64,000 bases of DNA, taken from positions 2,692,501-2,756,500 of the forward strand of contig NZ_CP014545.1 of the NCBI RefSeq assembly GCF_001586275.1, given 5' to 3'. This document shows, in pieces, positions 6,280-38,097 of the stretch. This DNA comes from Sphingorhabdus sp. M41 (lineage in GTDB: Bacteria > Pseudomonadota > Alphaproteobacteria > Sphingomonadales > Sphingomonadaceae). The position numbers and the translations under genes were made by a program. Positions within the stretch are counted from its first letter, which is position 1, and every line of letters begins with the position of its first letter. Below the pieces are notes generated by a model. That model was not told the DNA's origin. It saw only the letters and a program-made list of their open reading frames with translations, and did not search any database.

Positions 6280-6292
6280 ATCTATTATAGGA
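6280..6292. promoter_or_regulatory. divergent flagellar promoter palindrome (fliL / flgF)
   Basis: ATCTATTATAGGA, read on the minus strand as TCCTATAATAGAT. It is roughly 60 bp from both the fliL start (minus) and the flgF start (plus), and gives a TATAAT -10 towards fliL and TATTAT towards flgF. Confidence 0.6.
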
Positions 6293-6300
6293 CAACAGCC

Positions 6301-6322
6301 CGGCAATATTTTCCGCTTGCCG
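6301..6322. promoter_or_regulatory. inverted repeat CGGCAA...TTGCCG, candidate regulator site
   Basis: CGGCAA and TTGCCG separated by 10 bp lie between the palindromic promoter and flgF, upstream of the minus-strand -10 towards fliL. A related CGGCA-N5-TGCCG repeat sits upstream of fliF at 18641. The resemblance to GC-rich ftr-type FlbD sites of Caulobacter is from memory and unverified. Confidence 0.35.
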
Positions 6323-9090: not shown

Positions 9091-9103
9091 TCCTATAATG
9101 AAA
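9091..9103 (+). promoter_or_regulatory. flagellin promoter, one-sided TCCTATAATGAAA motif
   Basis: TCCTATAATGAAA lies 85-97 bp upstream of the flagellin ATG, with a consensus TATAAT -10 at 9094. I see no good TTGACA at the -35 spacing (sequence GCCAAC), so an activator is likely. I see no sigma-54 (GG-N10-GC) or FliA-type element. The same one-sided form precedes fliF and fliK. The remaining leader carries a short inverted repeat (ACGA..TCGT, about 9105-9122). Confidence 0.6.
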
Positions 9104-13052: not shown

Positions 13053-13062
13053 CATTATAGGA
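13053..13062 (-). promoter_or_regulatory. fliK-flgD promoter, one-sided TCCTATAATG motif
   Basis: On the minus strand this reads TCCTATAATGACT and is about 33 bp upstream of the fliK start. It contains a consensus TATAAT. The other half of the palindrome is absent; no gene is transcribed divergently from here (flhA ends at 13085 on the same strand). Confidence 0.6.
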
Positions 13063-13084: not shown

Positions 13085-15199
13085 TCAAGCCGCTACACCA
13101 AGCTGCGCCCGGCGCGTGATTGCGCCCAGCGAGCGGATTCTGACTCGGGGATGTATCTCGTTTTGTGAGACAATCATGGTTGCCGGCCGCACGCGTTCTA
13201 TGATCGAACGAAGAAACGGCCGATGAGTCGGGCTGGTCAGGATGCAGGGAATCTCTCCCTCACTCGCCAAACGGTCGAACAGAATCCGGAACTGGGCGAT
13301 GAATTCCTGCACCAGCGATGGGGCCAGTGCCAATTGCTGCGCGTCGCCCTCGCCCCTGATCGCCTCGGCAAATTCCATCTCCCATTCGGGCGACAGGGTC
13401 ACCACCGATAGCGCTCCGTCCCGTTGCAGCGCGGCGCAAATCTGGCGCGACAGACGCACCCGGACATATTCGGTAATCTGGCCCAGGTTCTGTGTGGCCG
13501 GGACGGCTTCCGCCACGCCCTCCAGAATGGTCGGCATGTCGCGGATCGATACGCCTTCTGACAGCAGATTCTGCAGGATGCGCTGAATCCCCGAGACGGT
13601 GATCTTTTGCGGAACCAGATCAGCCATCAGCTTCTCTGCCCCGGTATGGACTTCGGTTAGCAATTTCTGCGTTTCTGCGTAGGACAGCAAATCGGCAAGA
13701 TTGTCCTTGATAATTTCGGTCAGATGGGTGGTGACGACGGTCGAACCGTCGACCACAGTCAGGTTGCGGAAGCCGGCCTCGTCACGCAGATCGCGTTCGA
13801 TCCAAAGTGCGGGCAAACCGAAGACCGGTTCCTTGGTCGCTTCCCCGGCCAGACCGGTACTCTCCCCGGTAGGGTTGATGACCATCAGCTTGTTGAGCCT
13901 GATTTCTCCGCGTCCCGCCTCTGTCTCGCGGATATAGACAATATATTCGCTGGCACCCAATGTCATGTTATCGAGAATCCGGACTTGCGGGAGGACGAAG
14001 CCGTAATCGGTCGCCAATTGACGCCGCAGAGCGCGAACTTGATCGTCGAGACGCGGCTCGCTTTGCGATCCGTCAATGATCGGCAGCAGGCCATAGCCAA
14101 GTTCGATCCGCACCGAGTCGATCGAAAGCATCGCAGAAACCGGCTCTTCTGCAGCCTCATCTTTCTGCGCGGTCAACTCCGCCTCGACTGAGGCTGCGAG
14201 TTTGGTTTCTTCCGCCAGGCGCTGCATTTTCCAGGCAGCAAACAGGCATAGCCCACCAATAGTAGCGAAAGGGATCAGGGGTAGACCCGGGATAACACCG
14301 AAAACCAGCATGAGCGCTCCGGCGATGCCGATAGCCTGTGGATAGCGTCCGAGCTGCTCGGACAGAGCGATGCCTGCCTTGCCCGCCATCCCGCCCTTGG
14401 AAACCAGCAGGCCTGCTGCAATCGACACGATCAGCGCCGGAATCTGGCTGACCAGGCCATCCCCTACCGTCAACAATGTGTAAGTATGAAAGGCGGTGGA
14501 AAAATCCACATCATGAATTGTAGTGCCGACGATGATGCCGACCAGGATGTTGACTCCGGTGATCAGCAATCCAGCGATCGCTTCGCCCTTTACGAATTTG
14601 GATGCCCCGTCCATGGCGCCGAAAAAACCGCTTTCGGATTCGAGTTCGGTGCGTCGCGCGCGCGCCTCATGTTCATCAACTATCCCGGCATTGAGATCGG
14701 CATCGATTGCCATTTGTTTGCCGGGCATGGAATCAAGACTGAAGCGAGCGGCTACTTCCGCGATCCGTCCGGCGCCCTTGGTGATAACCACGAAATTGAT
14801 GATCACCAGAATCAGAAAGATCGTGAGGCCGATCACTGTCTGCCCGCCCATCAGGAATTCCCCGAACGCTCCGATTACGCCGCCTGCCGAATCTGGACCT
14901 TCGTGCCCGTTGCCCAGGATAAGCCGTGTGGAAGCCAGATTGAGTCCCAGGCGCAACATGGTGATGATCAGCAGGATCGTCGGAAAACCCGAAAGTTCCA
15001 GTGGCTTTTCGATGAACAGAACGGTCAGGAGGATCAAGACCGAAAAGGTGATGGAGATCGACAATCCAAAATCCAGAAGCCAAGCGGGCATAGGAAGGAT
15101 CAACATGCTGATGATTGCAATCACCGCCAGCGCCAAAGTGAAATCGCGATTGGCGAGAATGAGCGCAGCCCAATGCCTGAAATTAAATTGGCGTTCCAT
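13085..15199 (-). CDS. flhA: flagellar type III export gate protein FlhA
   Basis: 704 residues. The N-terminal half is a multi-helix membrane domain (starting ALILANRDFTLALAVIAIIS). The FHIPEP-family region includes GFPTILLIITMLRLGLNLAS, RFSLDSMPGKQMAIDADLNA and DGASKFVKGEAIAGLLITGV. The C-terminal cytoplasmic half (from about residue 350) binds export chaperone complexes. It follows flbD with a 31-bp gap, as in Caulobacter. Confidence 0.96.
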   Translation of the reverse strand: MERQFNFRHWAALILANRDFTLALAVIAIISMLILPMPAWLLDFGLSISITFSVLILLTVLFIEKPLELSGFPTILLIITMLRLGLNLASTRLILGNGHEGPDSAGGVIGAFGEFLMGGQTVIGLTIFLILVIINFVVITKGAGRIAEVAARFSLDSMPGKQMAIDADLNAGIVDEHEARARRTELESESGFFGAMDGASKFVKGEAIAGLLITGVNILVGIIVGTTIHDVDFSTAFHTYTLLTVGDGLVSQIPALIVSIAAGLLVSKGGMAGKAGIALSEQLGRYPQAIGIAGALMLVFGVIPGLPLIPFATIGGLCLFAAWKMQRLAEETKLAASVEAELTAQKDEAAEEPVSAMLSIDSVRIELGYGLLPIIDGSQSEPRLDDQVRALRRQLATDYGFVLPQVRILDNMTLGASEYIVYIRETEAGRGEIRLNKLMVINPTGESTGLAGEATKEPVFGLPALWIERDLRDEAGFRNLTVVDGSTVVTTHLTEIIKDNLADLLSYAETQKLLTEVHTGAEKLMADLVPQKITVSGIQRILQNLLSEGVSIRDMPTILEGVAEAVPATQNLGQITEYVRVRLSRQICAALQRDGALSVVTLSPEWEMEFAEAIRGEGDAQQLALAPSLVQEFIAQFRILFDRLASEGEIPCILTSPTHRPFLRSIIERVRPATMIVSQNEIHPRVRIRSLGAITRRAQLGVAA

Positions 15200-15230: not shown

Positions 15231-16553
15231 TCAGCGGGCAGGTTCGACTTGCATTCCGGCTTCGACGTACATCTTCAGTTTATTGCGCATTGTCCGCACA
15301 GAAATGCCCAGCACGGACGATGCCGAAGTTCGATTGCCACCACAGCGCGAAAGCGTTGACAGGATCAAATCGCGTTCGACATCGGCTACTGTATGGCCAA
15401 CGAACGCTTTTATATTGTCGGCCATTCCACCAGCAATCGGAGAGGCATTCGCAAGGTTCAAATCTATTGTGTCGATGAGTTCGCCTTGGCAGGCCAAGCT
15501 GGCTTGCAGCAGAATAGTGCGCAATTCGTGAAGGTTGCCTGGCCAGTTATGTTTGGAAACCTGTTTCCTCGCCTCGGGCGAAAAAAAACGCTGCGGAAGA
15601 CGATGTGCCTCTGCAATTTCTGCCAGCATGGAGCGGGCAATAGGTATGATGTCGCCCGCCCGCTCTCTCAACGGGGGCAGATCGATGGTGCCGCCAGCAA
15701 AGTATCGGTTAAGTTCGCTATCAAGGGTGTGATCAACTGCCTGGGAGTCGATAGATGCTACCACCCGTGGCGGGCTGTCCGGCGCACCGCTCGACGCCAG
15801 GCTATTTTCGTTCCGGATTGGCTGCTGCCGAGGGGCGTTCAACAATTTGATGCGAAGATCAGACGGCATATGGGCAATACCGCGCAGGTACAGAGTCCCG
15901 CCACTCGCCTCGGCTATTTGTCCAATTGCGTGTCCGTCCTCGCTCTCTCTGCCGAATAGAGATTGGCCTAGCGACCTGCCATCATCCGCGTGGCAATCGC
16001 ATACGATGAATGGTCCATGGCGCCCGCTGTGCTGATGAATCGAGCGGGCCAGTGTCTCCCTGCCAGTGCCCATTTCTCCGCGCAGCAGGACAGGGCTATG
16101 CGTCATGGCAAGAGCCTGCGCTATCCTGAGCGTACGGATGAACGCAGGATCTTCGGCCACCAACTTCGTTTGGCGAGCAGCGACGCTCGCCAAGGCCGCC
16201 CCGATCAAGGCCGCGTCTGGTGGCAGCGGGATAAAGTCGCGTGCGCCTGCTCTGATGGCCGCCACCGCAGCGATCGGCGTTGCCGCCACGCCGCAGGCGA
16301 TTACCGGTATCGTGCTGGCCAGCCGAGCTATCCCGGCGATCAGTCGCACCATGTTCGTGCCAATATCCGCGAGTACGAGATCGGCCCCGCGCAGACGGAG
16401 AAACTCCAATGCTTCATCATGCGTGTGGGCGATACTCGCCTGCGCGCCTGCCGCACTCGCAATCCTCGCTGCTTGACCCACGACCGAATCGGGCAGGCCA
16501 ACGAGCATCAGGCGCATACGATGGCGGATCGCGTAGTTTGCAATCTCGGTCAT
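15231..16553 (-). CDS. flbD: FlbD-type flagellar regulator with a degenerate AAA+ domain
   Basis: 440 residues. The N-terminal pseudo-receiver (residues about 13-125) is FlbD-like (TIPVIACGVAATPIAAVAAI, RAGARDFIPLPPDAALIGAA). A sigma-54-interaction-type AAA+ domain (about 135-350) and a Fis-type HTH follow (about 404-428, GGNRTSASSVLGISVRTMRN). Key AAA+ residues are changed. Walker A reads GEMGTGRE, with Arg165 for Lys. No GAFTGA follows LFG (residues 199-201). The Walker B position reads GGTLYLRGI instead of GGTLxLDEI. Sensor II GNVREL is GNLHEL (His342). ATPase and sigma-54 remodelling are therefore unlikely, while DNA binding should remain. The start overlaps the fliN stop (ATGA). Confidence 0.85.
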   Translation of the reverse strand: MTEIANYAIRHRMRLMLVGLPDSVVGQAARIASAAGAQASIAHTHDEALEFLRLRGADLVLADIGTNMVRLIAGIARLASTIPVIACGVAATPIAAVAAIRAGARDFIPLPPDAALIGAALASVAARQTKLVAEDPAFIRTLRIAQALAMTHSPVLLRGEMGTGRETLARSIHQHSGRHGPFIVCDCHADDGRSLGQSLFGRESEDGHAIGQIAEASGGTLYLRGIAHMPSDLRIKLLNAPRQQPIRNENSLASSGAPDSPPRVVASIDSQAVDHTLDSELNRYFAGGTIDLPPLRERAGDIIPIARSMLAEIAEAHRLPQRFFSPEARKQVSKHNWPGNLHELRTILLQASLACQGELIDTIDLNLANASPIAGGMADNIKAFVGHTVADVERDLILSTLSRCGGNRTSASSVLGISVRTMRNKLKMYVEAGMQVEPAR

Positions 16554-16978
16554 TCCTCGTCCCGGCGTACTATTTCGGTGAGAGTGACGCCCAACAGGCC
16601 GTCGATCAACACAACTTCTCCACGAGCGATAAGACGACCATTTACCAGAATATCGACCGGTTCGCCCACCCGGCGATCGAGCTCGATCACGTGTCCGACT
16701 TTCAATCGCACCACGTCCGCCACCGACATTTTTGCCCGCCCCAGAATGGCCTGGATGGTGACCGGCACATCATAGACTGCATCCAGACTGGAGAGAGAAT
16801 TTTCTATTTCGGTGACCGACGTAGATGCCGCAAATTCGACGGGAACGACGGGTTCAACAAGCGCCGTATCGTCCGGCTCAATAAATTCATCAGGAACGAA
16901 GCTGGGGTCCACTTCCATTTCGTCCGCCACATTGGTTTCGCTATCTGTGTTTTCGGTTGGCAAAATACTCTCCATCAT
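16550..16978 (-). CDS. fliN: flagellar motor switch protein FliN (long form)
   Basis: 142 residues from the ATG at 16978, chosen for a GGA upstream and the ATGA overlap with the fliF stop (ATG 16990 is an alternative). The acidic N-terminal extension is about 60 residues. The SpoA domain (residues about 68-138) reads VYDVPVTIQAILGRAKMSVA, DVVRLKVGHVIELDRRVGEP, VDILVNGRLIARGEVVLIDG. FliN forms the base of the C-ring. fliF-fliN-flbD-flhA resembles the Caulobacter fliF operon without fliG and fliH. Confidence 0.9.
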   Translation of the reverse strand: MMESILPTENTDSETNVADEMEVDPSFVPDEFIEPDDTALVEPVVPVEFAASTSVTEIENSLSSLDAVYDVPVTIQAILGRAKMSVADVVRLKVGHVIELDRRVGEPVDILVNGRLIARGEVVLIDGLLGVTLTEIVRRDEE

Positions 16979-18570
16979 GCGTTCATCCATTGGCGAATGA
17001 CCGAAGCCGATTCAGCAGGACTCGATTGTACTGTTGCGCCGATCTTCTTGAGAGCGGACAGTTTGATGCTCCCTTCGACCTGGGCAAGTTCAATCCCTTC
17101 TTCGAGCTGGTTCACTTCGGCAGTGCGATCGCGCGCATCGATCAGAGCGCTGTCGCCCGAAGTAGCGCCGCCATCAGGTTGGTGCGGGGTCAAATCGATC
17201 GGATCATTTGTCCTTCTCTCGGACAGCTCGAGCGCTGTGGTGACATTTTTTTTGCCGCGGACCATTCGCAGCGCGACCAGTCCAACTGCCGCAATGAGGA
17301 GCAATTTGCCGAAATCGAGCATCACACCTATTGGCAAGTTGTCGATCAGGCTTTCCGCAAGGCCGGGCTCTTCTTCAGGTGCGGCAAAGGGCATCGCTTC
17401 GATCACCACACTGTCACCGCGCTCTTCGTTAAAGCCGACGGCACTTTCAACCAATGACTGAAGACGTTGCTTGCGTTCCTGCGGCAAGGACTTCGTATCG
17501 AGCATGACCGCAACGGTAAGCCGGTTTATCGCGCCCGGAGCCCGGATGGTAACAGTATTGCGCGAACTATTCTGATAGACAGTATCTTCGCTGGTTTCAT
17601 TGCTGTTGGACAGTCGGCTATCACCGTCGCCGCCTTGCAGGTCGCCGCCATCGGGCAGCTGTTCGGATACTGTAGCCGCGCCGCCCGCTTGGGATTCGCG
17701 CGACTGGTCGCCTGCTTCCACTGAAATTTGGCGCTGGATAACTTGATTATCGGGATCGAAAGTCTGTGCTTCCTCGCGCTCTTGGTCGCGTTTTATGTCG
17801 GCCGTCACTTCCGCGCGGACTTTGCCGCGACCGACCAAGGGCTCGAGAAGCGATTCCACCTGGCTGCGGATGCGGTTTTCTACTTTCGTTTGCCGCTCGT
17901 CCGCCATGCTCGAACCAGCCGAACCGGCTTCACCGGCCCGAGCAAGCAATGCGCCGTTCTGGTCGACCACGGAAATGGCGTCAGGTGACAGTTCGGGTAC
18001 AGAAGCGGCGACCAGATACCGGATCGCGTCAACATTCTCTGCCGAGAGTCTACCAGCGGTTTTGACGGTCACCGCCGCGCTGGCCTTGCGTTGTTCGGCC
18101 GCGAATAAGGCGCGTTCGGGCATCACAATGTGAACGCGTGCGCTCGAAATGTTTCTCACCGTGGCAATCGAGCGCGCCAGCTCGCCCTGGATTGCGCGGG
18201 TTTCATTCAAGCGTTCGCGCGCCGCGCTGATTCCGAAAGGCTGTTGCTCGTCGAGAACCTCGAAGCCGATCTTCCCGCCGAGCTGTTCACCGGCCATCGC
18301 CATTCGCAATTCGGCAATATGTTCACGCGGAACCATGACCGCCGTTCCGTCGGCCGTCAGTTCGAACGGGATGTCCTGTGTTTGCAGCTTTTCGACGATT
18401 GCCTGGGCAGAAGACGGTTCAAGATCGGTATACAGATAACCCATCTGCCCGCTAGCGCGCGATCCGACAGCAACGTAAGCGAGCGCGGCCATCAGCATCA
18501 CGGCTACTACTGCCATAATGATGAGGCGTCGCGAGCCGAACTGAGTGGTAAAATTCCTTAGACCTTCCAA
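16975..18570 (-). CDS. fliF: flagellar MS-ring protein FliF
   Basis: 531 residues. The start is a TTG at 18570 with GGGAGGG upstream. Two membrane helices lie near residues 17-37 (LIIMAVVAVMLMAALAYVAV) and about 425-445 (GVMLDFGKLLLIAAVGLVAL). The YscJ/FliF periplasmic domains include GYLYTDLEPSSAQAIVEKLQ and ERLNETRAIQGELARSIATV. The cytoplasmic FliG-binding C-terminus ends VIRQWMNA. The promoter motif at 18621 lies 51 bp upstream. Confidence 0.95.
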   Translation of the reverse strand: MEGLRNFTTQFGSRRLIIMAVVAVMLMAALAYVAVGSRASGQMGYLYTDLEPSSAQAIVEKLQTQDIPFELTADGTAVMVPREHIAELRMAMAGEQLGGKIGFEVLDEQQPFGISAARERLNETRAIQGELARSIATVRNISSARVHIVMPERALFAAEQRKASAAVTVKTAGRLSAENVDAIRYLVAASVPELSPDAISVVDQNGALLARAGEAGSAGSSMADERQTKVENRIRSQVESLLEPLVGRGKVRAEVTADIKRDQEREEAQTFDPDNQVIQRQISVEAGDQSRESQAGGAATVSEQLPDGGDLQGGDGDSRLSNSNETSEDTVYQNSSRNTVTIRAPGAINRLTVAVMLDTKSLPQERKQRLQSLVESAVGFNEERGDSVVIEAMPFAAPEEEPGLAESLIDNLPIGVMLDFGKLLLIAAVGLVALRMVRGKKNVTTALELSERRTNDPIDLTPHQPDGGATSGDSALIDARDRTAEVNQLEEGIELAQVEGSIKLSALKKIGATVQSSPAESASVIRQWMNA

Positions 18571-18620
18571 CTTGCCCTCCCAAGGCGCTTAGATATTCAT
18601 GAGGAATATCCCCGCGATTT

Positions 18621-18630
18621 CATTATAGGA
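18621..18630 (-). promoter_or_regulatory. fliF operon promoter, one-sided TCCTATAATG motif
   Basis: Minus-strand TCCTATAATGAAAT lies 51 bp upstream of fliF and is identical over TCCTATAATGAAA to the flagellin site at 9091. It sits in the 200-bp space between fliH and fliF, which otherwise holds no gene I can support. Confidence 0.6.
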
Positions 18631-18640
18631 CAGGTTGAGG

Positions 18641-18655
18641 CGGCAGGTTTTGCCG
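18641..18655. promoter_or_regulatory. inverted repeat CGGCA-N5-TGCCG upstream of fliF
   Basis: CGGCAGGTTTTGCCG is a 15-bp inverted repeat located 10 bp upstream of the TCCTATAATG element, around the usual -35 region. It is a candidate activator site, comparable with the CGGCAA/TTGCCG repeat at 6301. Confidence 0.4.
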
Positions 18656-18770
18656 GGGCGGAAATTTTTGCCGCATCGGCTGACTTTGTCGGATATTCAT
18701 GCAACTTGGGTGAAAGCGAGGCCGAGAGCGCCTCGCATTTGACCGCATGCAGAATAACGCCCGAACGCAT

Positions 18771-19400
18771 TCATGGTTCGCGCATTTGCTCCATCTCGGC
18801 TTCGATCGCGGCCTTGCGAGCCGCCGCATCGAGGATCATGGCACCGCAATCCCATTCCAGCGCGGCATCACCGTGTTCGATCTTTGCATCGCCGACAACA
18901 TGTAAATTGAGATTGCGCCGATCCTCGTTCTGGCGCGCGGCGATACGCAATTCTACTTCATCGCTCAGGTCGGGATGGACCCGCACGGTAATCTCGCTGC
19001 CTCGCGTAATTTCCAGCAGGATCTTTCCGATGGCTAAGTCAATCGCCTGCCCCGGATCCGCCTCAATCGCTCGCCCAGCGAGCAATTCCGCAGCGGCAAG
19101 ACCCAGTTCGGCCGCTTGTTGCGTTATGGTGTGCAAGATTCGTTCGCGGTCATCCTGCTCGATCTCAATTCCCGCTTGAAGCGCGTCGATCGCGGCCAGG
19201 ATCGCTTCGTCGCGGTCTTGTCGTGCGTGGGTCAATCCGGCCTCGAATCCTTCGCTTCTTGCGCGGGCGATTTCGCGTTCCCGGTCCTCCGACAGCGCCG
19301 CAAGTTCCGTTCGCAAAGCCTGCGCATCGAGCGCAAAGTCTGCAATATTCACGTCTGAGGATGAGAAACAGCGATCGAATGAATATGCTTGGATGCTCAT
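18771..19400 (-). CDS. fliH: flagellar export regulator FliH
   Basis: 209 residues. FliH binds and restrains the export ATPase FliI. The N-terminal half is a charged helix with the GxxxG/Ax3 pattern (EREIARARSEGFEAGLTHAR). The C-terminal domain has the FliH/YscL pattern (ITVRVHPDLSDEVELRIAAR, then ALEWDCGAMILDAAARKAAI). It lies 3 bp after fliG. No fliI or fliJ follows. Caulobacter calls this gene flbE. Confidence 0.85.
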   Translation of the reverse strand: MSIQAYSFDRCFSSSDVNIADFALDAQALRTELAALSEDREREIARARSEGFEAGLTHARQDRDEAILAAIDALQAGIEIEQDDRERILHTITQQAAELGLAAAELLAGRAIEADPGQAIDLAIGKILLEITRGSEITVRVHPDLSDEVELRIAARQNEDRRNLNLHVVGDAKIEHGDAALEWDCGAMILDAAARKAAIEAEMEQMREP

Positions 19401-19403
19401 GGC

Positions 19404-20441
19404 CTAGTAAACCATCGCGTCGTCGGATTTTGGATCGACGAGCACGATTTCTCCGCGGTCAGCCAGATTCTTGGCCAGGCGGATCAGTTCACTCTGAGCC
19501 TCGTCGCATTCGCGCGCGCGCACCGGTCCCATCGATTCCATCTCGTCCCGCAGCAACTTGGCCGCGCGGTCGGTGAGCGCTCCAAAAAACACCTCCTTGA
19601 TATTTTCGGGTGCGGCCTTGAGAGCGAGCGCCATGATCCGCTTGTCGGCTTGACGAACGACGACCGCCACCGATGCCGGGAGCAGATTGGCAAGATCTTC
19701 GAAAGTGAACATCAATTGCCGGATCCGGTCCGCTGAATCGGGTATTTTTGCTTCCAGCGCGGTCAGCATCGTTTCTTCGGTCTGGCGGTCCATTGCGTTG
19801 AAAATATCCGCCATGCTTTCATGGGGATCGCGCTTCTGCGTGCGAGACAGATTGCTCATGAACTCGTGCTTCAGAGTATCCTCGATTTGAGTAATTATTT
19901 CCTTCTGTACATTGTCCATCCGCAACATTCTCTGGATCACATCGACCGACATCGTGCCGGGCAATTCGGAAATCACCCGCGCTGCATGTTCGGGTTTCAG
20001 GCGCGATAGGATCACGGCTACCGTTTGCGGATATTCGTTGCGGAGATAGGCTGCGAGTACCGTCTCGTTGACATTGGAAAGCTTGTCCCACATCGTGCGA
20101 CCGGATGGGCCCCTTATGTCTTCCATGATCTCGCGTACGCGGTCGTCAGGCATCATTCCGATAAGCAGTCGTTCGGTGGATTCGTAACTACCGTGAAGCG
20201 AGGCCATACTGGCAACTTCACCGGTGAAATGGACCAGCAGATATTCCGCCACCGCTGCCGGAATCCGTCCCAGCTGCGCAATCGCGGCGGAGAGCTCCTT
20301 TATTTCCTCGGTCGATAGATGCTCCCAAATCGGACCACCATGTTCTTTCCCCAGCGCCAGCATTAATGCGGCCGCCCGCTGCGGGCCGTTGAATTTCTTC
20401 ATTTCGGGCGGTTCGCCCAATGTTGCAGTGTCGACAGTCAT
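19404..20441 (-). CDS. fliG: flagellar motor switch protein FliG
   Basis: 345 residues. The ATG at 20441 was chosen because AAGGGG lies 5 bp upstream. FliG is the C-ring rotor protein that contacts MotA. The N-domain has GPQRAAALMLALGKEHGGPI. The middle domain has NEYPQTVAVILSRLKPEHAA and RVISELPGTMSVDVIQRMLR. The C-terminal domain carries the charged torque helix (DKRIMALALKAAPENIKEVF, ALTDRAAKLLRDEMESMGPV). Probably transcribed from the palindrome at 20493. Confidence 0.95.
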   Translation of the reverse strand: MTVDTATLGEPPEMKKFNGPQRAAALMLALGKEHGGPIWEHLSTEEIKELSAAIAQLGRIPAAVAEYLLVHFTGEVASMASLHGSYESTERLLIGMMPDDRVREIMEDIRGPSGRTMWDKLSNVNETVLAAYLRNEYPQTVAVILSRLKPEHAARVISELPGTMSVDVIQRMLRMDNVQKEIITQIEDTLKHEFMSNLSRTQKRDPHESMADIFNAMDRQTEETMLTALEAKIPDSADRIRQLMFTFEDLANLLPASVAVVVRQADKRIMALALKAAPENIKEVFFGALTDRAAKLLRDEMESMGPVRARECDEAQSELIRLAKNLADRGEIVLVDPKSDDAMVY

Positions 20442-20492
20442 GCAAGCCCCTTCAAAAACGGTCCGTGTAGCCGCCCGCACCGGCAGCTTTCG

Positions 20493-20505
20493 TCCTATTA
20501 TAGAA
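20493..20505. promoter_or_regulatory. divergent flagellar promoter palindrome (fliG / FlaEY-like gene)
   Basis: TCCTATTATAGAA lies 52 bp from the fliG start (minus, TATAAT) and 40 bp from the start at 20545 (plus, TATTAT). Confidence 0.6.
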
Positions 20506-20544
20506 TGGAGATCGACCCGGCGGGGCCGCAGCAGGGACAAAAAG

Positions 20545-25642: not shown

Positions 25643-25655
25643 TCCTATTATAGGA
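25643..25655. promoter_or_regulatory. perfect divergent promoter palindrome (flgI / fliX)
   Basis: TCCTATTATAGGA is a perfect 6+1+6 palindrome, the most complete copy in the window. It lies 34 bp from flgI (minus) and 38 bp from fliX (plus). TATAAT on one strand and TATTAT on the other overlap, so polymerase could engage either way, but probably only one way at a time. Confidence 0.7.
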
Positions 25656-25692: not shown

Positions 25693-26127
25693 ATGAAGGT
25701 GACAGGGCCGGTCGAGCCGATTCGATCACGGACGTACCACCAGACCTCGGATCGCTTCGATCCGAGGGAGGGCAAGGCGAATAATGCTGCCAGTTCAGCT
25801 CAGACCGCTTCTCGCCCAATGCAAGTACCGTCCGCACATCCGGCGCCGCCATCAACGTCGATGGCGATGCTGCTCGCCGTGGCCGCCGCCAATCCGGATC
25901 GCGAAAAGCGCCGCCGTATCGCCGAACATGGTCAACTCGCGCTCGACCAGCTCGAAGCGCTCGATAACGCGCTGGCATTAGGCACTGTGGACGAGACTTT
26001 GATCGCGAGTTTGACCGAATGGGCGCAGCAACTCGGTCTAAATGAACCAGCAGAAGTGGCGGAGATCATGGGAGAAGTGGAACTGCGGCTGAAGGTGGAG
26101 CTGGCCAAGCTCAATCGCGCAGTTTGA
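25693..26127 (+). CDS. fliX: flagellar assembly regulator FliX
   Basis: 144 residues; GAAGGAG precedes the ATG. A variable polar N-terminus (MKVTGPVEPIRSRTYHQTSD) is followed by the FliX core (residues about 58-144): MAMLLAVAAANPDREKRRRI, ALDQLEALDNALALGTVDET and VELRLKVELAKLNRA. In Caulobacter FliX binds FlbD and ties its activity to basal-body assembly. It is divergent from flgI and converges on flhB with a 4-bp gap. Confidence 0.8.
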   Translation: MKVTGPVEPIRSRTYHQTSDRFDPREGKANNAASSAQTASRPMQVPSAHPAPPSTSMAMLLAVAAANPDREKRRRIAEHGQLALDQLEALDNALALGTVDETLIASLTEWAQQLGLNEPAEVAEIMGEVELRLKVELAKLNRAV

Positions 26128-29063: not shown

Positions 29064-29126
29064 TCCAATTCTAGGAAAAATTTGCCTAGTAGCGGTCGAA
29101 AACGCGAGATTTTTCCTATCAAGGGA
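29064..29126. promoter_or_regulatory. degenerate copies of the promoter palindrome (flgC / short fliN)
   Basis: TCCAATTCTAGGA (29064-29076, two mismatches to TCCTATTATAGGA) and TCCTATCAAGGGA (29114-29126, three mismatches) lie in the 118-bp divergent space between flgC and the short fliN. They are weaker matches than the other sites, so I treat this as tentative. Confidence 0.35.
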
Positions 29127-35120: not shown

Positions 35121-35612
35121 TCAAGCCGCAAGATCGAGATGCCGGGTAACGCTCAGCTTCTCGAGATTGAGGAGTGAGACCATGATCTCGTCCTTTTCAC
35201 CCTCTTCCGCTCGCCCGCGGCGGCTTACCTGAACCAGCCCGTCGATGACATTTGCATCGTCCGTCTCGATATCGGGTGCCGGCTGGATATCCTCACGGTT
35301 GATGGTGACAATATCGGCCACTTCATCGACGAGGAAACCCGCTTGCTTTTCGCCAATATTGACCACAAGTATGCACGAGCGATCATGCAACTGGCTGGGC
35401 GGCCAGCCAAGCCGCTCGGCGAGACCAATAACAGGAACGACGTGGCCGCGCAGGTTTGTTACGCCCTTGATGAAGCTAGGAACACTAGGCAGGGGCGTAG
35501 GATCTTCCCATTCGCGAATTTCGACCAAGGCTGCCATTTCGATCGCGAACATTTGCTCGCTCAGCCGAAAAGTTACCATCTTGGTATCACCCATAGTTTT
35601 TTCTTCACTCAT
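35121..35612 (-). CDS. cheW: chemotaxis coupling protein CheW
   Basis: 163 residues. The two-subdomain CheW fold is evident: MVTFRLSEQMFAIEMAALVE, PSFIKGVTNLRGHVVPVIGL, CILVVNIGEKQAGFLVDEVA and DIVTINREDIQPAPDIE. The C-terminus has a slightly longer acidic insert (RRGRAEEGEKDEI). The start overlaps the cheA stop (ATGA). Confidence 0.95.
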   Translation of the reverse strand: MSEEKTMGDTKMVTFRLSEQMFAIEMAALVEIREWEDPTPLPSVPSFIKGVTNLRGHVVPVIGLAERLGWPPSQLHDRSCILVVNIGEKQAGFLVDEVADIVTINREDIQPAPDIETDDANVIDGLVQVSRRGRAEEGEKDEIMVSLLNLEKLSVTRHLDLAA

Positions 35613-37735
35613 GCTGCTAGTCCTTTCAGGTTAAATTTGGCTTGGGTGGCGGTCGACGCGACCAACGCATCGATGTCGAGGATCAAGGCGATGGACCCAT
35701 CACCCAATATGGTCGCGCCGCCGAGCCCACGAATGGGATAGAGGTTCTGGTCGAGGCTCTTGATGACGACCTCGCGTCGATCTTCAATGGTATCGACCAG
35801 CAGGCCCATGCGGCCCGCCTCGCTTTCGACGATAATGACCACCGCGTCGTCGCCAGCTTGGCGTTCGCTGACAAGGCTGAATAACTCGGTTGCTCGCTGG
35901 ACTGGCACAAAATCGCCGCGCAACTCGATCACTTCGCTAGTCGGCGAGACGGGGCTCACTTGGCCGAAATCGGGTTTAACGGTTTCGACCACGCTGGCCA
36001 GTGGCAGAACATAGCGTTGCCCGGCGACGCGCACGATCATGCCATCAAGGATGGCCAGAGTAAGCGGCAAGACCATCGTGAAAGTCGTGCCTTGGCCAGG
36101 AACGGAAACGATTTCCACCCGGCCGCCAAGCGCTTCCACATTCGACCGAACGACATCCATACCCACGCCCCGCCCGGATATGTTCGATACGGTTTCCGCG
36201 GTCGAGAACCCGGGCGCGCAGATAAGGTTATCGATCTCTTCGTTGGTCAGCTGCGCATCGCTGGAAATAATGCCCTTCTCGATCGCCTTGGCTTTCACCC
36301 GTTCGCGATCAATTCCACGGCCATCATCTTTGACGCGCAGGAAAATGCGCGCACCCTTTTGTTCAGCGGAGAGTTGGAGGACGCCTTTGGAACTTTTTCC
36401 CGACGCTTCGCGCTCTTCAGGCAGCTCAATCCCGTGATCGACCGCGTTCCGGATCATATGTGTCAGCGGTTCGCCGATTTTTTCGATCACGCCCTTGTCG
36501 ACTTCGGTCGTCTCACCGACCATTTCAAGTTCAACCTGTTTTCCGGTTTCGGCGCATAGTTCGCGCACGATGCGGGGCACCCGGCTGAACGCCTGGCGCA
36601 CTGGCTGGGCGCGCAGCGACATTACGTTGTCCTGGATCTCGCGCGTCAGTCGCGCGAGTTCGGGCAGTTCCACGCGTTGCTGATCGGCTGCCGACAAGCG
36701 GTCGGACAGGATCGAGTTACGGATCACCAGTTCTCCGACCAGGTTCAGCAGCATGTCGAGCTTGGTCACGTCGACGCGGATGGTTTGGGGGATGATCGTT
36801 TCCACCTTGGCTTCACTGCCGCTTTCGGATGCCGCAGGCAGCGGTGCCGAAGCGGTGCTTTCAATAGCATCGCTGGCCACCGGATCGATTAGAGCGACCG
36901 CATCCACAGGAGCCGGATTGACCGGAGCATCCCGCTGGATTTCAATGACCGAACTCGGCGGTACGAAATCAAAGCATTCGTGCAAGGCAGTTTCTTCAAC
37001 CGTGCCCGGTGCTTCCAAATTATAGGACAAGTAACTGTTTTCAGGTTCGAGCTCGCGCAAAGGCGGTAATTGATCGTCGATCGACACCAGCTTGCCGCCC
37101 AGCCGCTCGACCTCGCGAATGACGAGCAGGGGTTCGCCACCATTGGCCAGCGCTTCCCGTGATGGGGTGAAACGGATCGTCCAGGCGGCTGGCTCAGCGA
37201 GCCCGAACTCATCAAGCTCCGCGCTGACCGGCTGAAAATCGAAACCATCCCCATCCAGATCGTCGAGCGATACAGCTACCGGCTGAAACCCGCCGTCATC
37301 GTCCGTGGTAGCGCTCGCACCGTTATCATTTTCGAGCCCTGCCCCAACTGCAGGCTGTCCCAGAGCAAGCTGCAAGGAGGCGAGAGCAGCCGCGTCGTCC
37401 GGCGGGCTACCACCAGAACGGGCCGCACCAACGTGGTCGCTGAGGACGTCGAAGGCCGACAGCATTACCCGGCAAACAGTCTCGTCCGCCTTGATCTTTT
37501 CTCCACGCACGTCGTCGAGCAAATTTTCGAAAACATGTGCAAAATCCTGCAACGCGGAATGGCCAAAGGCTCCCGCGCCGCCCTTGATCGAATGAACCGC
37601 GCGGAATACGCCGGCGATTACATCGACGGACGCATCACCGTCTGCCATCGCAGAAAGGCCTGCCTCGGCAGTGCCAAGTCCTTCTTCGGCTTCTTCGAAG
37701 AAGATCGCCTGAATGTCTTCATAATCGTCGCTCAT
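35609..37735 (-). CDS. cheA: chemotaxis histidine kinase CheA
   Basis: 708 residues from the ATG at 37735, which overlaps the cheY stop (ATGA). The HPt domain carries the phosphorylated His in VFRAVHSIKGGAGAFGHSAL (about residue 50). A long acidic linker and a P2-like segment (about 195-275) follow. Dimerisation: TKLDMLLNLVGELVIRNSIL. Kinase: LTHMIRNAVDHGIELPEERE, VKDDGRGIDRERVKAKAIEK and SGRGVGMDVVRSNVEALGGR. A C-terminal CheW-like domain ends the protein. Confidence 0.96.
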   Translation of the reverse strand: MSDDYEDIQAIFFEEAEEGLGTAEAGLSAMADGDASVDVIAGVFRAVHSIKGGAGAFGHSALQDFAHVFENLLDDVRGEKIKADETVCRVMLSAFDVLSDHVGAARSGGSPPDDAAALASLQLALGQPAVGAGLENDNGASATTDDDGGFQPVAVSLDDLDGDGFDFQPVSAELDEFGLAEPAAWTIRFTPSREALANGGEPLLVIREVERLGGKLVSIDDQLPPLRELEPENSYLSYNLEAPGTVEETALHECFDFVPPSSVIEIQRDAPVNPAPVDAVALIDPVASDAIESTASAPLPAASESGSEAKVETIIPQTIRVDVTKLDMLLNLVGELVIRNSILSDRLSAADQQRVELPELARLTREIQDNVMSLRAQPVRQAFSRVPRIVRELCAETGKQVELEMVGETTEVDKGVIEKIGEPLTHMIRNAVDHGIELPEEREASGKSSKGVLQLSAEQKGARIFLRVKDDGRGIDRERVKAKAIEKGIISSDAQLTNEEIDNLICAPGFSTAETVSNISGRGVGMDVVRSNVEALGGRVEIVSVPGQGTTFTMVLPLTLAILDGMIVRVAGQRYVLPLASVVETVKPDFGQVSPVSPTSEVIELRGDFVPVQRATELFSLVSERQAGDDAVVIIVESEAGRMGLLVDTIEDRREVVIKSLDQNLYPIRGLGGATILGDGSIALILDIDALVASTATQAKFNLKGLAA

Positions 37736-38097
37736 GGGCACACCTTCCGGATCGCCGCACCCAGTTTTTCCGGGTCAAAGGGTTTGGTTATCCAACCGGT
37801 CGCGCCGGCAGAGCGGGCGCGGGCCTTCTTTTCGTCGGAAAATTCGGTAGACAGCACGAGGATAGGTATCCCGCGAAACGCGGATTCTGCTCGCACGGCT
37901 TCGATCAGTTCGAAACCGTCCATCTTCGGCATGTTGATGTCGGTAATCAGCAGATCGGGCCGCACCTCGTGCATTCGCGCCAGGCCGTGCTCACCATCTT
38001 CAGCGTCCTCGATCGCGAAGCCCTGCTTGGTAAGCGAAGCCTTGAGCAACATGCGCATACTCGGCGAATCGTCGACGGTCAGGATCTTCTTGCTCAT
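37732..38097 (-). CDS. cheY: CheY-type response regulator upstream of cheA
   Basis: 121 residues, a single receiver domain. MSKKILTVDDSPSMRMLLKA carries the acidic pair, LLITDINMPKMDGFELIEAV the phosphoacceptor Asp, PILVLSTEFSDEKK the Ser/Thr and GWITKPFDPEKLG the Lys. The sequence type (cheY directly before cheA) is typical of alphaproteobacterial che clusters. With the second CheY it may act as motor ligand or phosphate sink. Confidence 0.92.
   Translation of the reverse strand: MSKKILTVDDSPSMRMLLKASLTKQGFAIEDAEDGEHGLARMHEVRPDLLITDINMPKMDGFELIEAVRAESAFRGIPILVLSTEFSDEKKARARSAGATGWITKPFDPEKLGAAIRKVCP

Follow-up and report, generated by a model that had tools for sequence, protein, structure and literature searches.

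A sphingomonad lineage of FlbD lacking key motifs of a sigma54 activator, and its predicted role at sigma70 flagellar promoters

The window, which is the whole stretch of 64,000 nucleotides analysed here from Sphingorhabdus sp. M41, carries a flagellar gene cluster that includes flbD, its presumed partner gene fliX, and the remnants of the motifs expected of a sigma54 activator. The motif remnants were read from the translation, the helix-turn-helix (HTH) from Pfam and the alignment.

15231..16553, minus strand: flbD, 440 aa, with a degenerate receiver (residues 13-121), a dead AAA+ domain (128-366) and a Fis-type HTH (384-432)
13085..15199, minus strand: flhA, downstream neighbor of flbD, named by sequence and position
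16550..16990, minus strand: fliN, upstream neighbor, overlapping the start of flbD
16975..18570, minus strand: fliF, lying upstream in the same unit as flbD
25693..26127, plus strand: fliX, the FlbD partner (PF10768, 56 bits)
16056..16079, minus strand: Walker A remnant GEMGTGRE, Lys165 replaced by Arg
15921..15959, minus strand: L1 region beginning LFGRESED, GAFTGA loop deleted
15876..15902, minus strand: Walker B remnant GGTLYLRGI, Asp-Glu replaced by Arg-Gly at residues 224-225
15522..15545, minus strand: sensor II remnant WPGNLHEL, Arg replaced by His342
15258..15404, minus strand: HTH containing GNRTSASSVLGISVRTMRNKL, which hardly varies in the clade described below

The gene order over positions 15231-20540 is fliG-fliH-fliF-fliN-flbD-flhA, whereas canonical clusters have fliF before fliG.

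The window protein belongs to a rapidly evolving version of the flagellar regulator FlbD found in sphingomonads. Among NCBIfam models the FlbD model NF050807 ranks first (309 bits over residues 13-438; runner-up 133 bits), with a score far under its 750-bit equivalog cut-off. Orthology, proposed in the initial annotation, is further supported by the place of the gene between fliN and flhA, by its grouping in the tree and by the presence of fliX in the genome. The reading frame is intact, and its codon-position GC resembles that of flhA and fliF. In Pfam searches the Sigma54_activat match is weak (65.9 bits), the AAA lid is found, the receiver domain falls below the cut-off and HTH_8 scores normally (45.7 bits), in agreement with the annotation of an intact Fis-type DNA-binding domain. 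In addition to FlbD, six strong and two weak PF00158 proteins are encoded in the genome.

Four sequence motifs used here to recognize a sigma54 activator are missing from this protein: the GAFTGA loop, the Walker A Lys, the Walker B Asp-Glu and the sensor II Arg. The LFG at residues 199-201 is followed by RESEDGHAIG with no loop, and both translation and alignment bear out the annotated Arg165, Arg-Gly 224-225 and His342. An AlphaFold model built from 29 sequences (mean pLDDT 82.5, pTM 0.64) is predicted to keep the AAA+ fold; the nearest solved structures are NtrX of Brucella, NtrC4, NtrC1 and LuxO, with VpsR lower.

The initial annotation had named the same four losses throughout the clade as what would support its reading. 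We compared 86 FlbD sequences, drawn from the best 30 loci by gene order, the loci of a family search and the best 80 of 114 named relatives; a protein counted as FlbD if it scored 425 bits or more with the degenerate profile A1, the best score below this limit being 313 bits. Thirty sequences are of the sphingomonad type, 29 recognized by an HTH of the SVRT form and one (locus L078), whose HTH lies off the contig, by its AAA+ part. Two of the four losses are clade-wide. Arg replaces the Walker B Asp in all 30, and the GAFTGA Thr is absent from all 30, which mostly read GAFPGA or GDFPGA, with the loop deleted or destroyed in a few. The other 56 sequences all retain Asp-Glu and carry GAFTGA or GSFTGA (51) or GAFSGA (5). 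The Walker A Lys, in turn, is lost in only 3/30 sphingomonad-type sequences and kept in 27/30, the Arg of the window protein recurring in L064 and L054, from Sphingomonas CFBP 8760 and PP-F2F-G114-C0414. The sensor II Arg is lost in 11/30 and kept in 19/30, and the Walker B Glu is kept in 13/30. Sister species with intact motifs were absent among those compared, and strain-specific decay as the cause of the losses was excluded, the two key losses being common to the whole clade. Named members among the matches listed belong to Sphingomonas, Sphingosinicella and one "Sphingomonadales bacterium". A match to flbD in Sphingomonas sp. 7/4-4 (L077, 8001-9315) contains three stops and is either a broken gene or a sequencing error.

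In the tree, the 27 sphingomonad-type sequences that were included form one clade on a long stem (support 100/100), and the sister of this clade (97/97) is a canonical FlbD from the same family (L128). Three other bEBPs of the M41 genome fall outside the FlbD group (100/99), a placement to be taken with caution given the long branches in the tree. In terms of sequence, the common ancestor of the sphingomonad-type FlbDs had lost the loop predicted to contact sigma54 and the Walker B Asp predicted to handle Mg and ATP. No FlbD branch in the tree is longer than that of the window sequence (2.99), whose place inside the clade is therefore unsure. This branch, together with the losses of the window protein that go beyond those of the clade (Walker A Lys, loop and sensor II Arg), could be read as signs of a pseudogene undergoing decay in a strain that is losing its flagellum. 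We regard this as very improbable and reject it, because the key losses are common to the whole clade, the frame is full length, the HTH is intact, flagellar gene order is as in relatives, and the -10 elements and palindromes described below are in place.

Of the three domains, it is the HTH that shows the lowest dN in 12/13 close clade pairs (the exception is L126/L127), in line with the purifying selection on the HTH that the initial annotation had named as support. The AAA+ domain exceeds the receiver in dN in 10/13 clade pairs, as compared with 3/9 canonical pairs (one tie). Among close degenerate pairs omega is 0.05-0.39 for AAA+ and 0-0.14 for the HTH; these values come from other clade pairs, since the search found no close relative of the window FlbD. 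Taken together, dN and omega indicate that the AAA+ domain of the clade is relaxed and not neutral; some constraint on it persists, and it may interact with ATP or with a partner. Given the frequencies of the Walker A Lys and sensor II Arg, ATP binding may survive in relatives.

In some relatives the AAA+ domain has disappeared. We first met these proteins when a promoter-pattern search pointed to genomes without any FlbD recorded until then. An HTH-only profile run over 397 genomes of the family gives a sharply two-peaked distribution (at least 91 bits versus at most 48 bits) and places FlbD in 26 of them: four canonical full-length proteins, one canonical-type fragment (G298, a 71-aa frame in a genome that is 7% contaminated), ten full-length degenerate proteins and 11 without AAA+. 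Each of these AAA-less FlbDs is encoded by a short ORF between fliN and flhA with the same HTH as the full-length proteins; with starts chosen by us, their lengths are 94-188 aa. The shortest are those of G391 and G424 (94-95 aa), G543 has an apparently complete receiver fused to the HTH, and most of the others keep part of the receiver. In the 11 AAA-less clusters 360-635 bp separate the fliN match from the flhA match, compared with 1339-1540 bp across 11 clusters with a full-length degenerate FlbD, which leaves no room for an AAA+ domain. Omega is 0.04-0.45 in five pairs of these genes, which thus evolve as genes. For two of the proteins Pfam reports HTH models only, plus a sub-cut-off receiver in one, and the 95-aa FlbD tested is scarcely more than an HTH_8, much like Fis or a stand-alone HTH_8 protein; they differ from the latter in occupying the place of flbD with the HTH of FlbD, and the simplest account is therefore that they arose from FlbD through the loss of domains.

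The predicted loss of sigma54 contact is matched by an absence of exact sigma54 sites from the flagellar clusters. The pattern TGGCMCRN4TTGCW has no exact match in the window and three one-mismatch matches (3.1 expected), in line with the annotated lack of sigma54 promoters there, and on the same grounds we rejected the use of sigma54 from elsewhere in the cluster. Four exact sites lie outside the window in the M41 genome (one for the backward pattern), and rpoN is intact. When 11 degenerate and 10 canonical flagellar clusters were compared (one canonical cluster spanning only 31.8 kb), exact sites were found in 0/11 and 9/10, respectively; the canonical sites lie 7-163 bp before ORFs of 292-683 aa, mostly fliK-like by position only. 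rpoN is kept in 35/37 genomes, and the remaining two are 80% and 67% complete.

A second set of features lies at the promoters of the window, where we find candidate FlbD operators resembling the 13-bp palindrome GGCAA-N3-TTGCC.

18642..18654, minus strand: candidate FlbD operator GGCAAAACCTGCC, fliF promoter, one mismatch to the palindrome
18660-18672: second candidate operator copy, fliF promoter, one mismatch
18622..18630, minus strand: -10 element TCCTATAAT of the fliF-fliN-flbD-flhA promoter, its TATAAT beginning 14 bp past the operator
6302..6314, minus strand: fliL-fliM promoter, candidate operator with one weak half in the window
6284..6292, minus strand: -10 element TCCTATAAT, fliL-fliM
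29074..29086, minus strand: candidate operator upstream of flgC, the third in the window, with one mismatch

With at most one mismatch, the palindrome is present upstream of fliF in 10/10 canonical clusters (seven exact) and 11/11 degenerate clusters (none exact). What follows it differs. In canonical clusters TTAA at +5 and TTTAC at +16, each in 8/10, form a CtrA-type box, whereas neither occurs at those places in the 11 degenerate clusters. In 9/11 of the latter an exact TATAAT lies 14-16 bp past the palindrome or 31-32 bp past its upstream copy; of the two exceptions, G275 has TATAGT and G344 has none. We refer to the palindrome followed by TATAAT as the composite. With one mismatch allowed in each part it is found at both fliF and fliL in 10/11 full-length degenerate clusters (G344 has none), and in AAA-less genomes at fliF in 10/11 (not G458; gap 13-15) and at fliL in all eight in which fliL lies within the fetched stretch (gap 12). 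Canonical clusters contain 16 matches versus 7.2 expected, none of them upstream of fliF in its direction. Two palindromes (at most two mismatches) 16-18 bp apart precede fliF in 17/17 named sphingomonad loci among the matches listed, with a -10 of TATAAT in 11 and TATAAA or TATAAG in 6; a stricter composite scan recovers 11 of these 17. Before flgC, the palindrome (at most two mismatches) is present in 8/8 clusters in which flgC was located. The Fis-type HTH is conserved, and so is the palindrome, at up to two mismatches, at flagellar operons.

Across the 397 genomes, the exact composite pattern matches 34, comprising 9/10 with degenerate FlbD, 10/11 with AAA-less FlbD and 15/376 others, and the backward control matches 4/397. 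Association of the pattern with sphingomonad-type FlbD (19/21 versus 15/376) has a Fisher p of 3e-21, although the species are related and the counts are consequently not independent. Two of the 15 others (G495 and G523) have the match at a fliL promoter in a 20-kb stretch without fliF or flbD; at these loci (L211 and L210) flhA is absent or partial and flagella are apparently being lost.

Two further observations concern the -10 element and its surroundings. TCCTATAAT occurs six times in the window versus 0.19 expected, also preceding flagellin (9091-9099), lying between fliK and flhA (13054-13062) and between flgI and fliX (25647-25655), and once inside the ORF at 35609-37741 (37019-37027); no clear palindrome was seen at the flagellin copy. 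Between fliL and flgF (6280-6292) the -10 lies within another palindrome, TCCTATWATAGGA, with two mismatches in the window, which is found 60-65 bp from flgF in 9/10 clusters and 49 bp in one. This site is possibly a two-way promoter at which the operator acts as a block for flgF. Motif-free k-mer enrichment returned nothing, and a search for GGCA/TGCC dyads across spacings was uninformative, because the coding sequence of GC-rich genomes is full of them.

The link between operator and FlbD rests on co-occurrence and position, and the palindrome and TATAAT could be elements of a different flagellar regulator found alongside FlbD. G344, which has a degenerate FlbD and no composite promoter, would fit this, as would the canonical sigma54 sites, of which 6/9 have no palindrome (at most one mismatch) within 120 bp. 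In the remaining three the palindrome (one exact, two with one mismatch) lies 57-113 bp away, as for an enhancer, and it spans clades that share nearly the same recognition helix. A Fis-type HTH dimer is expected to have a palindromic site. Moreover, none of nine sampled congeners without FlbD has the composite promoter. Among 22 named canonical loci listed, an exact palindrome lies 3.8-4.9 kb before flbD in eight and the other 14 have no exact one. We consider a different regulator distinctly unlikely and infer that FlbD would bind the palindrome.

At fliF and fliL the candidate operator covers the place of a -35 element, 11-16 bp before TATAAT, with no recognizable -35 and no extended -10: none of 39 composite promoters comes within two mismatches of TTGACA at a spacing of 16-18 (two do at three mismatches), and none has a TGn extended -10. 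The absence of both elements would speak for activation. We posit, with a probability of roughly three in four, that FlbD is an ATP-independent, promoter-proximal regulator of sigma70 promoters. A FlbD dimer would bind the palindrome without ATP, in place of the CtrA-type box found at canonical fliF promoters. The bound protein would recruit or hold sigma70-RNA polymerase, as in class II activation, and so set the level of the early flagellar operons, its own gene included. The AAA+ remnant would serve as a spacer or dimer scaffold and has been deleted in some lineages. The plain DNA-binding regulator suggested in the initial annotation is supported, at the level of prediction, by the clade-wide losses, the AAA-less FlbDs, the low dN of the HTH and the missing sigma54 sites. 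As to the sign of regulation at these promoters, we would put activation at about 65% and repression at about 30%. Points against our explanation are that the fliF palindrome is exact in 7/10 canonical and in no degenerate cluster, that G344 and G458 have no composite at fliF, and that the fliL operator of the window itself is weak on one side.

A serious rival, given that in Caulobacter fliF and further class II genes are under repression by FlbD (according to the available text of PMC3930126 and PMC3096577), is that sphingomonad FlbD kept only this ancestral repression and dropped sigma54 activation, blocking sigma70 polymerase over the -35 once the basal body is built, with activity supplied by another factor or by basal promoter strength. 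The fliF palindrome of canonical clusters, the fact that blocking requires no ATP, and the retention of FliX in 10/12 full-length degenerate genomes are all in keeping with this rival. Set against them are the 39 promoters without -35 or extended -10 and the vanished CtrA-type box, with which a bare repressor model leaves no activator, and the tandem second copy 16-18 bp upstream at fliF in many degenerate clusters; on balance we think repression alone unlikely, though worth serious consideration. Less probable still is an AAA+ domain that binds ATP without hydrolysis and acts as an oligomerization switch at sigma70 promoters (of the kind reported in the accessible part of PMC10274813). This would account for the Walker A Lys in 27/30 sequences, for an AAA+ omega well below 1 and for the AAA+ fold in the structure model, but the window protein has Arg at the Lys position and the domain is missing in 11 genomes, 10 of which have the same fliF promoter layout.

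Caulobacter FlbD, a sigma54 activator of late flagellar genes and fliF repressor with FliX as partner, is the nearest known system. Sphingomonad FlbD resembles it in its receiver-AAA+-HTH layout, a near-identical recognition helix, FliX and the palindrome at fliF; the likeness of the fliN-flbD-flhA locus was judged against canonical alphaproteobacterial FlbDs and not against the Caulobacter record itself. It differs in lacking GAFTGA and the Walker B Asp, and in some relatives AAA+ altogether, and its cluster differs in having no exact sigma54 site and no CtrA-type box at fliF. The GAFTGA-less NtrC proteins of Rhodobacter capsulatus and Caulobacter likewise have the body of an enhancer-binding protein, have lost sigma54 contact and act at sigma70 promoters (as described in the sections of PMC10274813 available), although they form a different family. 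Growth of Caulobacter on ammonium depends on the Walker residues K178 and D235 of NtrC (PMC10274813, same sections), in contrast to sphingomonad FlbD, in which Arg has replaced the Walker B Asp in every sequence compared and AAA+ can be absent. VspR of Vibrio cholerae, which has no GAFTGA, controls sigma70 promoters with no requirement for ATP (PMC10274813, in part). A sigma70 route therefore exists, as these NtrC proteins and VspR attest (PMC10274813; PMC12421884; both from partial text). VspR/VpsR are bEBP-like, as is FlbD, and VpsR structures are among the fold matches, but they are neither orthologous to FlbD nor flagellar. VpsR is an atypical sigma70 activator. As a putative sigma70-acting degenerate bEBP, sphingomonad FlbD has its candidate operator at -10-bearing promoters.

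The distribution of FliX bears on the receiver domain. PF10768 is found in 11/12 canonical genomes (missing in G322, an assembly of 200 contigs); in the full-length degenerate genomes the one in G382 was found by our own profile only (113.6 bits) and G344 has none. Among the AAA-less genomes FliX is present in 1/11; this genome is G543, whose FlbD alone in the group keeps a full receiver, a single and suggestive case for contact with the receiver. The place of FliX contact on FlbD is called unclear in the part of PMC3096577 available. Where it is retained, FliX probably acts on FlbD by way of the receiver domain.

FliA was rejected as a general replacement. The FliA model scores above its cut-off in 13/23 genomes with sphingomonad-type FlbD and reaches 175.6-183.9 of the 189.6 bits in the M41 genome, G422, G297, G387 and G509, but G253, G275, G344, G350 and G401 have no FliA-level match (best 106-111 bits). 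The window cluster is also not the usual flagellum of the genus, given that a search of 29 congeners with the window FlhA gave 18 matches at only 36-41% identity, one partial match and none in ten. Elsewhere in the M41 genome (G000:C1, about 2113300-2118100; L264, 4326-9065) lies an FlhA-like protein of 437 aa without the membrane half (model positions 274-678), with a FliA-like sigma factor (183.9 bits), a canonical bEBP and an exact sigma54 site all within 5 kb. This module is either an orphan or a relic of the congeners' flagellum.

Our literature search, which covered few subscription papers, found no published account of motor loss from FlbD in sphingomonads, and the topic is not treated in the parts of PMC6180460 and PMC13015449 that were covered. 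The FlbD of Sphingomonas sp. WG is termed a sigma54 activator in the available text of PMC8921679, which calls the flagellar gene organization of strain S2M10 similar to that of WG; the FlbD of S2M10 (L042) is degenerate in our alignment. We predict that "sigma54 activator FlbD" is the wrong label in sphingomonads. On a slightly better than even footing, we suggest that the circuit moved from sigma54 to sigma70, reusing the operator at former CtrA promoters, that AAA+ was then deleted, down to an activator of 94 aa, and that FliX contacts the full receiver. The family would thereby offer a graded natural series, from a working motor through a dead motor to no motor, with matching promoter changes, in which the order of dismantling of a sigma54 circuit may be read.
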